64,000 nt of DNA from an uncultured Actinomycetes bacterium (lineage in GTDB: Bacteria > Actinomycetota > Acidimicrobiia > Acidimicrobiales > RAAP-2). The DNA is taken from positions 1-64,000 of the forward strand of contig CAIQWC010000012.1 in assembly GCA_903875425.1 (NCBI GenBank). The letters run 5' to 3'. A program made the position numbers and the translations under genes. Under the pieces are notes generated by a model that was not told the DNA's origin, did not search any database, and worked only from the letters and a program-made list of their open reading frames with translations. Each line of letters opens with the position of its first letter. The stretch's first letter is position 1. Shown one piece after another: positions 36,694 to 39,446 of this stretch.

Positions 36694-37281
36694 GTGACGT
36701 CCTCGCCCATCGGCTTGTTTGGAGGCACCTTCGACCCGCCACACCTCGGCCATGTGGCGGCAGCGAAGCGCTGCCGAGACGCCTTGGGCCTAGAACGGCT
36801 CCTCCTGGTGGTCGCGAATGATCCATGGCAAAAATCCCCTAGCCGGACCATCTCGCCGGCTTCGCAGCGCCTCGCCATGGTGGCACTGGCCATCGAAGGT
36901 GAGCAAGGTCTAGAAGTGTGTGATTTTGAGGTCGCGCGTGGGGGAGAGAGCTACACCATCGATACGGTCGAAGAATTAGAAGCCCAGGGATATCGGGACC
37001 CTTGGATCATCGTGGGTTCAGATCTGTCGGCCACGATGGATACCTGGGAGCGAGCCCGAGATCTGCAGCAACATGCCCGCCTGGCCGTGCTGTCGAGGCC
37101 AGGTAGTCCCCTCGAACTGCCTGAGGGGTGGCGGGCGGTGGCGTTGGAATCCGATGAACTCGATATCTCGAGTTCCATGATTCGCCAGCGCTTAGCGCAA
37201 GGCGCCGATGTTTCCGAATTACTGCCTGAAGGGGTAATCCGACATCTCGGAGACCATGATCTGTACAGTGGGCAAGGATGA
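36694..37281 (+). CDS. nadD: Nicotinate-nucleotide adenylyltransferase
   Basis: This 195-aa nucleotidyltransferase has GLFGGTFDPPHLGHV with the HxGH motif at the N-terminus, WIIVGSDL in the middle and the ISSSMIRQRL motif near the C-terminus. It adenylates nicotinate mononucleotide in NAD synthesis. The start is GTG. Its stop overlaps the next ATG (ATGA). Confidence 0.95.
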   Translation: MTSSPIGLFGGTFDPPHLGHVAAAKRCRDALGLERLLLVVANDPWQKSPSRTISPASQRLAMVALAIEGEQGLEVCDFEVARGGESYTIDTVEELEAQGYRDPWIIVGSDLSATMDTWERARDLQQHARLAVLSRPGSPLELPEGWRAVALESDELDISSSMIRQRLAQGADVSELLPEGVIRHLGDHDLYSGQG

Positions 37282-37502
37282 GTACTCGGACTAGGCGCTC
37301 TGGAACATCGGGAACACGAGGGGGACAGAGCGCCTCTAGTGCCCCTGGCTTCTCGCACCGCCATACCATGCCCTCTCGCCGTGCCCGGAGAGCTGCGCAA
37401 CGCTTGCAGGCTCGCCAGCGTCGTAACTGGATGATTGCCGGCGCGGCTGCTTTGAGCCTTCCCTTCGCGGTTACGATGCTTGTTATGGGGCTACTCCGCT
37501 GA
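37278..37502 (+). CDS. Small basic single-span membrane protein
   Basis: This 74-aa protein has a Ser/Arg-rich, strongly basic first 50 residues and one C-terminal membrane segment (about residues 51-72) ending in LLR. The ATG overlaps the nadD stop by 4 bp, so translation is coupled. I recognise no family. The charge pattern predicts a cytoplasmic basic tail with the C-terminus outside. Confidence 0.65.
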   Translation: MSTRTRRSGTSGTRGGQSASSAPGFSHRHTMPSRRARRAAQRLQARQRRNWMIAGAAALSLPFAVTMLVMGLLR

Positions 37503-37549
37503 CTGATTTTCTTTCATCCCGCGCAGTGCAAGCGCAGGAAGAATCGCGC

Positions 37550-37909
37550 ATGCTGGTGCTCACCGCAGCCCAGGCTGCCGACGATAAGCTCGCTCACGAA
37601 CCGGTGGCGCTCTATGTCGGCGATCTGCTCAGCGTTGTGGACTATTTCTTGGTGGTCTCAGGGCGCAATGATCGACAAGTCCATGCGATCTGCGACGCAA
37701 TAGAAGAGCGGGTTAAATCAGATGGAGGACGCTCTCCTCTTCGCATCGAAGGCCTGCGTGAGGGCACATGGATCCTTATGGATTACGGCGACGTGGTGGT
37801 TCATATCTTTGAAGAAGAGGCCCGGCGCTACTACGACCTTGAACATCTATGGCTCGCGGCTCCTCGCCTCGCGTTACCTGAGTTTTCTAGGATCAACGCC
37901 GAGGACTGA
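37550..37909 (+). CDS. rsfS: Ribosomal silencing factor RsfS
   Basis: This 119-aa protein matches the Iojap/RsfS family: AAQAADDKLA, YFLVVSGRNDRQVHAI and the EGLREGTWILMDYGDVVVHIF core. It binds L14 on the 50S subunit and blocks joining with 30S under starvation. ATG 37550 has AGGAAG 8 nt upstream; the in-frame GTG at 37526 has no ribosome site. The order nadD-rsfS is widely conserved. Its last 36 bp overlap the antisense lipoprotein ORF. Confidence 0.92.
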   Translation: MLVLTAAQAADDKLAHEPVALYVGDLLSVVDYFLVVSGRNDRQVHAICDAIEERVKSDGGRSPLRIEGLREGTWILMDYGDVVVHIFEEEARRYYDLEHLWLAAPRLALPEFSRINAED

Positions 37910-38050
37910 GAGTGAGTGACTCAACCGGTGCGTTTGGTGCGCAGGGGGCTTTTGAATAATCTGCGGAGCGGTGTCGGTAGGGATAGCGCAGGCGCTCATA
38001 GTAAGAACAACGCTGAGCAGACTCACAATTACCAAGAATCGCCTAGCCAC
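37874..38050 (-). CDS. 58-aa lipoprotein, LpqB N-terminus-like (truncated or mini LpqB)
   Basis: A 59-codon frame starts at GTG 38050, overlapping the mtrB stop by 8 bp, with GGAG 6 nt upstream. It encodes a signal peptide (MARRFLVIVSLLSVVLT) with lipobox MSAC and then AIPTDTAPQ, which resembles the start of mature LpqB/GerMN-domain lipoproteins. Actinobacteria commonly have mtrA-mtrB-lpqB in this order. The GerMN and beta-propeller domains (about 500 aa) are absent and the frame stops inside antisense rsfS. Either lpqB has decayed to a stub, or a mini-lipoprotein remains in use. Confidence 0.6.
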   Translation of the reverse strand: MARRFLVIVSLLSVVLTMSACAIPTDTAPQIIQKPPAHQTHRLSHSLSVLGVDPRKLR

Positions 38051-39446
38051 CGTCTACTCCGTCGACGATAGGGAGTACCAAGGTGGCTGTTAGGCCAGGG
38101 CCGGGGTCATTGTTGGTTAACTCAATTGTGCCATGGAGGTGCTGAACTTGGGTCGCGACGATAGCGAGTCCGAGCCCCGAACCTTCGCCGGACCGGCGTT
38201 GTCCCGCCGCTGATCCTCGATAGAAGCGCTCGAAAACTCGAGGTAGGTCACTGGCAGTAATGCCTGGACCAGCATCCGAGATGGAAATGACGAGACCTCG
38301 GGCGCTTCGAGCAACGATGATGGCGCGACATCCATTCCCATACTGCGCGGCGTTCTCTAGCAAGTTACCGACGATGCGTTCGAAACGACGTTTATCGACA
38401 GCGATGACGATATCGGCAGCATCGCCCGTGAGGGTGAGAAGGGGTGGCACAACATCGGGATTATTGCGCTGAAATGAAGCGACGCTCTGATTGAGTAGTT
38501 CACCGACGGTCACCTGTTGAACCGTCAAGGGTGTCTTTGAGCCGTCGAGGCGCGCGAGTTCTATGAGATCTTGTAGGAGTTTCTCGAAGCGACGAACCTC
38601 TGCGGCAAACAAGGCAAGGGCTTCACGGCTCCGTGGATCGCCATCTTCCGTCGTTCGTTGCACCACGTTGAGTGCTCCGATCATGGACGTAAGAGGCGAA
38701 CGCATTTCATGGCTGACATCGGAAGCGAAGCGGCTATCTCGTTCGATGCGCTCAGAAAGGTGTTCTGCCATTTCGTTAAACGAAGTGCTGAGTCCGCCAA
38801 GATCGGGGTCTGCGCCTCGATCGGGGAGGCGAATGGTCAGGTCACCTCGAGCGATCGCTTGTGCGGCTTGCGAAACTTCCTTAAGGGGTGCCATAGATCG
38901 GCGTGCGGCGAAGGCTCCTGCGAGGGCTCCGAGACTCACGATAATGATGGAGGTTCCTAGGAGTGCGCCGAATAGGACGCTGAGTGTGTGTTGCAGGTTT
39001 GCCAAGTTGGTTGAGAGCAGATAACCATCACCGCTGCTGCCAATGCTGACCGCGACCACGAAGTAGGGATAGCCGGTAATTTTGGTGGTCTGAACTGCGC
39101 TTTGGCCCTTGCGCAGCGCTGCTCGGATCGATGGTGAGAATGCTTGTTCCACATGCAGCGGGCCCGACAGGTACCAGCTCCCCCCGACGTAGAGACCAGC
39201 AGTTTGTCCAGCGTTAAGCAGAGCACCGTCGAGACTCGTTGCTGGCGAGATTCCTGTACGAAGTTCTCGCTCTATTGCTGACGCTTGCTGGAAGGCTTGG
39301 GTTTCGAGGGAATGCTGCTGATCAACAATGAGGAAATGACGGGTGGTGAAGTAACTTAAGACACCGCTCGCGGTAGTGAGAGCAATGACGACGACGCAAA
39401 TGGTTACTGCTAGTTGCGTTCGTAGTCTTCGGGGTCGTCGAGCCAC
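38043..39446 (-). CDS. mtrB: MtrB-like sensor histidine kinase
   Basis: This 467-aa kinase has two membrane segments (about residues 12-32 and 157-180) bounding a ~120-aa extracytoplasmic sensor, then HAMP (about 182-235), HisKA with phospho-acceptor His at about 246 in SDVSHEMRSPL, and a HATPase domain (NLLENAAQYG, DAGPGI, GSGLGLAI). The start is GTG, 5 bp after the regulator stop. In mycobacteria MtrB controls cell-wall and division genes; that role is inferred from synteny. Confidence 0.88.
   Translation of the reverse strand: MARRPRRLRTQLAVTICVVVIALTTASGVLSYFTTRHFLIVDQQHSLETQAFQQASAIERELRTGISPATSLDGALLNAGQTAGLYVGGSWYLSGPLHVEQAFSPSIRAALRKGQSAVQTTKITGYPYFVVAVSIGSSGDGYLLSTNLANLQHTLSVLFGALLGTSIIIVSLGALAGAFAARRSMAPLKEVSQAAQAIARGDLTIRLPDRGADPDLGGLSTSFNEMAEHLSERIERDSRFASDVSHEMRSPLTSMIGALNVVQRTTEDGDPRSREALALFAAEVRRFEKLLQDLIELARLDGSKTPLTVQQVTVGELLNQSVASFQRNNPDVVPPLLTLTGDAADIVIAVDKRRFERIVGNLLENAAQYGNGCRAIIVARSARGLVISISDAGPGITASDLPRVFERFYRGSAAGQRRSGEGSGLGLAIVATQVQHLHGTIELTNNDPGPGLTATLVLPIVDGVDGG

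Follow-up and report, generated by a model that had tools for sequence, protein, structure and literature searches.

In mycobacteria the lipoprotein LpqB modulates the kinase MtrB (PMC5487470), and the sense of this effect is disputed: early mycobacterial work suggests activation, whereas CRISPRi in M. tuberculosis supports LpqB as a restraint on MtrB (PMC9159947). We analysed a window of 64,000 nucleotides of DNA from a small acidimicrobial genome (1.61 Mb, 98% complete; G000), in which the place directly after mtrB is taken by a frame of 58 codons. Is this frame a decayed gene or a minimal lipoprotein associated with MtrB? The first-pass annotation had left both readings standing and had proposed that the frame replaces lpqB.

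The frame after mtrB and its counterpart in a second species

The features of the locus are collected in Table 1. The names MtrA and MtrB rest on best hits and gene order, because both proteins score under the NCBIfam equivalog cut-offs (top match MtrB, 215 bits against a cut-off of 450, for the kinase; top match MtrA, 249.5 bits against 300, for the regulator). Many relatives share the gene order xerC-mtrA-mtrB-lipoprotein, with rsfS and nadD convergent to it. The comparison included one other genome of the same genus, G001, and the short form is thus known from two genomes. Between nadD and rsfS, the window also encodes a very basic 74-aa protein with a single C-terminal hydrophobic segment (37278-37502, plus strand), which had no match in a Pfam search; its counterpart in G001 is likewise 74 aa long and lies at the equivalent place (L061:4057-4281, minus strand).

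Table 1 Features around the 58-codon frame, in coordinates of the 64,000-nucleotide window
Feature	Position	Strand	Remarks
58-codon small lipoprotein gene	37874..38050	minus	GTG start, TAA stop; from the ORF list, equal frame and length in G001
GGAG ribosome-binding-like box	38057..38060	minus	6 nt before the GTG, within the 3' end of mtrB
Signal peptide, residues 1-20	37991..38050	minus	Hydrophobic core: letters diverged, character kept
Lipobox MSAC (VSAC in G001), Cys21 invariant	37988..37999	minus	
Mature residues 21-46	37913..37990	minus	Conserved C[AG]IPTxxxPQII..PPxHQTH; 14/26 identical, synonymous distance saturated
3' end of the short frame (11 codons plus stop)	37874..37909	minus	Overlaps the final 11 codons plus stop of rsfS in antisense
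mtrB-type histidine kinase, 467 aa	38043..39446	minus	HAMP, HisKA and HATPase_c above cut-offs
mtrA-type response regulator (OmpR-type), 235 aa	39452..40159	minus	
rsfS	37526..37909	plus	Convergent; PF02410 1.8e-31

The frame encodes the protein MARRFLVIVSLLSVVLTMSAC-AIPTDTAPQIIQKPPAHQTHRLSHSLSVLGVDPRKLR. Its GTG, its upstream box and its 8-bp overlap with mtrB (mtrB stop at 38043-38045) lie where the first-pass annotation had placed them, and the signal peptide, the lipobox, the mature start AIPTDTAPQ and the stop inside antisense rsfS that it had described were likewise recovered. The signal peptide junction reads …LTMSAC/AIPTDTAPQII…. Judged by eye and by pattern, the protein has the hallmarks of a bacterial lipoprotein, with an Arg in the n-region, a hydrophobic core and a lipobox of the form [LVI][ASTVI][GAS]C in which one position (-3, M in the window) is slightly non-canonical. 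The stop codon (37874-37876) lies opposite a rare Leu codon of rsfS, which is TTA in the window and CTA in G001; no other Leu codons would give a stop at this place, and the two account for 10-12% of the Leu codons of each species, which is suggestive only.

The frame was picked from the window alone, so G001 served as an independent test. At the equivalent location G001 carries a frame with a GTG start, 58 codons, an 8-bp overlap with mtrB and a GGGAG box, and the stop-to-stop gap between mtrB and rsfS is 133 nt in both genomes, with no indel. The two short proteins are 48% identical, sharing both signal-peptide ends, the Cys and the motifs IPT, PQII, PP, HQTH and LSVL. Where the frame runs antisense to rsfS, 7/11 of its residues are identical between the two species compared with 5/11 for rsfS, although these are small numbers.

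Selection on the short frame

The two species are distant enough for neutral sequence to have been largely rewritten. Synonymous sites of the flanking genes mtrA, mtrB, rsfS and nadD are saturated (pS 0.69-0.81), and four-fold sites in five flanking genes are 33.5% identical, compared with 60% identity for the part of the short frame that lies outside mtrB and rsfS. Within the mature protein, pN was 0.19 against a pS of 0.67 for residues 21-41, and 0.26 against 0.57 for residues 21-46, the latter pN being near that of mtrB itself (0.27); because synonymous sites are saturated and only two genomes are available, these rates are rough. The signal peptide has retained 3/17 residues between the species, and residues 5-20 are without a charged, polar-amide, His or Pro residue in either of them. 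Its codon differences fall at the second position 4 times and at the first position 13 times.

The mature identity that we observed was reached in 0/30,000 neutral simulations run at the four-fold distance, and a hydrophobic core lacking charged and polar residues arose in 0.05% of neutral simulations. When the simulated distance was instead matched to the region's own overall identity, the joint outcome had a frequency of 4e-4 to 3e-5. None of the five other reading frames was open in both species and patterned like coding sequence. Together, this comparison indicates that the 58-codon frame is under purifying selection at the protein level and is not a decaying remnant.

Full-length relatives and the origin of the short form

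Comparison of the mtrB 3' regions of relatives, as the first-pass annotation had advised, placed the short frame in a wider family. In 40 other family genomes with a readable, adjacent mtrB–rsfS pair, the gap holds a lipoprotein of 163-255 aa (14 + 26 genomes), lengths that carry some uncertainty in the choice of start; those of these proteins that were examined for the domain usually contained GerMN (PF10646). The full-length gene is present in 6/6 sampled members of the nearest genus, g7, with which the genus of G000 and G001 groups in the mtrB tree (92/99), and for these reasons we regard the truncation as the derived state. The first-pass annotation had held that a full-length gene in close relatives with a frameshift or deletion here, combined with a lack of conservation of the short frame, would refute its reading. 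The full-length gene does stand at the same place in other genera of the family, but the short frame is conserved.

In those genera the lipoprotein (e.g. L065:3457-4041) shares with the short protein its position, the overlap with mtrB, the convergent rsfS, a signal peptide and a C-G-I-P-T start, but the short protein lacks both the GerMN domain and the VPFxLL motif and is encoded by 58 rather than 163-255 codons. Reciprocal profile searches showed N-terminal homology, with weak matches that nevertheless fell at the syntenic position. With a profile built from the short-protein pair, the best family matches outside the genus were mostly N-termini of gap lipoproteins, including syntenic GerMN lipoproteins of eight genomes (G003, G022, G026, G009, G004, G034, G023 and G012; E 1.6e-4 to 6e-3), the contigs and strands being those of the Germane matches. 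Conversely, with a profile of six full-length g7 proteins, the short frame was the sole match in G001 (E 0.023). The order mtrA-mtrB-lipoprotein, convergent with rsfS, and the homologous N-terminus thus agree with orthology to the acidimicrobial GerMN lipoprotein, from which the short protein departs in having no GerMN domain.

LpqB (NF010141 / PRK13616), which joins MtrAB as the third component in mycobacteria, corynebacteria and streptomycetes, occupies the same place in the same gene order. Residues 7-39 of the short protein weakly match the N-terminal part of the LpqB model (E 0.045, 12.3 bits, far under the cut-off of 602), while the protein has neither the GerMN domain nor the beta-propeller of LpqB, is one tenth of its length and gave no match in a Pfam search. 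Of the proposed replacement of lpqB, what stands is that the syntenic lipoprotein has been reduced and its large domain is gone; what does not stand is the identity of the larger gene, since the family gene is a GerMN-type lipoprotein without a beta-propeller. The ancestral gene is a GerMN-only lipoprotein and not a full LpqB with GerMN and propeller.

A GerMN gene relocated to another part of the genome, which the first-pass annotation had also recommended looking for, was ruled out by searches with the Pfam model and the six-protein g7 profile, neither of which found a Germane domain elsewhere in G000 or G001. The profile gives the better negative, as it recovered the control genes of G016 and G027, which the Germane family search had missed. 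A search of G000 for the LpqB propeller (Gmad1) also gave no match.

The locus also varies elsewhere in the family. In G010 there is no room for a lipoprotein gene between mtrB and rsfS (L062:3884-3901, the rsfS match ending 15 nt from the mtrB stop), so the gene can be dispensable; the MtrB of G010 also forms the longest branch in the mtrB tree. Three genomes of genus g10 (G079, G101 and G133; L216:1933-2424, L220:1948-2448 and L222) encode lipoproteins of 163-166 aa after mtrB that score weakly or not at all with the GerMN model, and domain loss in this family may therefore be repeated and gradual. No mtrB was recognised beside rsfS in genera g11, g15, g18 and g19 and in some g10 genomes (L205-L210, L212-L214, L217, L221, L224), and in g15 some members may retain the lipoprotein, judging by matches of the short-pair profile on contigs with rsfS. 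When the N-terminal motif was surveyed over Actinomycetota via mtrA loci, mtrB was recognised in close groups only.

In the genomes with the short frame, the deletion has left no visible scar. The best reading of these comparisons is that the short frame reflects a genus-specific domain deletion that left behind a selectively maintained small lipoprotein. In the ancestor of the genus, a GerMN-type lipoprotein gene after mtrB would have lost about 450 bp that encoded the linker motif VPFxLL together with all of the GerMN domain, after which the reading frame would have continued into rsfS antisense and come to its stop at a Leu codon (TTA/CTA). The gene would have kept its coupled translation with mtrB, its signal peptide, the lipidated Cys and the mature start IPTxxxPQII, and would have gained a new tail of about 25 residues.

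Probable action on MtrB and alternative roles

We propose that the short gene is still translated and that its product is a lipidated peptide of 38 mature residues kept by selection, most likely placed next to MtrB at the outer surface of the cytoplasmic membrane. There it could contact MtrB and tune it through its N-terminal segment, as LpqB does in mycobacteria, and would do so with no sensory domain. Since production with MtrB, anchoring and the mature start have all been retained, the short protein probably still acts on MtrB. Taken as a whole, this account of an ancestral GerMN loss and a lipopeptide that is still made, selected and most likely tunes MtrB seems to us reasonably probable.

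Two alternatives deny the frame a function as a protein. It could be the passive remnant of a recently truncated GerMN lipoprotein gene, a view that the absence of the GerMN domain would suit, as would the tendency of related small genomes to shorten the gene, as in the three g10 genomes, or to lose it, as in G010. Yet with synonymous sites saturated, a frame free of constraint would not have survived the time since the species split, while the frame, the lipobox, the hydrophobic core and over half of the mature residues in Table 1 persist with no indel; we consider decay, the first of the two possibilities raised by the first-pass annotation, largely refuted and quite improbable, and its second, the minimal lipoprotein, favoured. 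Alternatively, since the frame sits in the short space separating two convergent genes, the conserved DNA might be a non-coding element such as a terminator or the 3' end of convergent transcripts. This is the least probable reading of all and is disfavoured, as no terminator-like site was found in the gap in G000 or G001, the region folded no better than its shuffles (z -1.4 to 0.5), and the differences between the species follow the codon positions of the short frame.

The main rival accepts a real small lipoprotein but moves its function away from MtrB, for example to envelope structure, and treats the coupling to mtrB as an inherited expression unit. It would account for the loss of the sensory domain and of the VPFxLL motif and for the newly conserved HQTH tail, and it is also compatible with the faster evolution of MtrAB: MtrA and MtrB have diverged faster in this genus than rsfS, nadD and xer (ratios of distance to g7 of about 1.65-1.73 against 1.13-1.27), which fits a changed system without showing the cause. 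We nevertheless find such a role unlikely, as the gene remains in the operon and overlaps mtrB, its conserved start is the one common to the mtrB-linked family, and the divergence of the MtrB sensor loop is not unusual for that of the kinase. A relaxed MtrB sensor domain following loss of its partner was considered separately and rejected, with a sensor identity of 0.51 at a kinase identity of 0.61, within the range of other pairs.

If the short lipoprotein does act on MtrB, it would resemble MgrB, a small single-pass membrane protein that tunes the sensor kinase PhoQ, in that a few dozen residues outside the membrane would modulate a kinase. MgrB is not a lipoprotein and, to our knowledge, is unrelated to the short protein in sequence. 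By extension, the membrane-anchored N-terminal tip of MtrB-linked lipoproteins may be an active part by itself, with this genus having reduced the third component of MtrAB-LpqB to a kinase-regulating lipopeptide of 38 residues that lacks a sensory domain; we offer this idea tentatively.

For annotation, the locus carries a caution, in that GerMN or LpqB profiles would report the gene as lost although its product is probably still made. For the biology of MtrB, a natural domain deletion kept by selection shows which part of the lipoprotein is indispensable, and a simple question becomes testable, namely whether the anchored N-terminal segment alone affects MtrB. That an acidimicrobial genus with small genomes has lost the folded domain and kept the 58-codon remainder suggests that the membrane-anchored tip has a function by itself.
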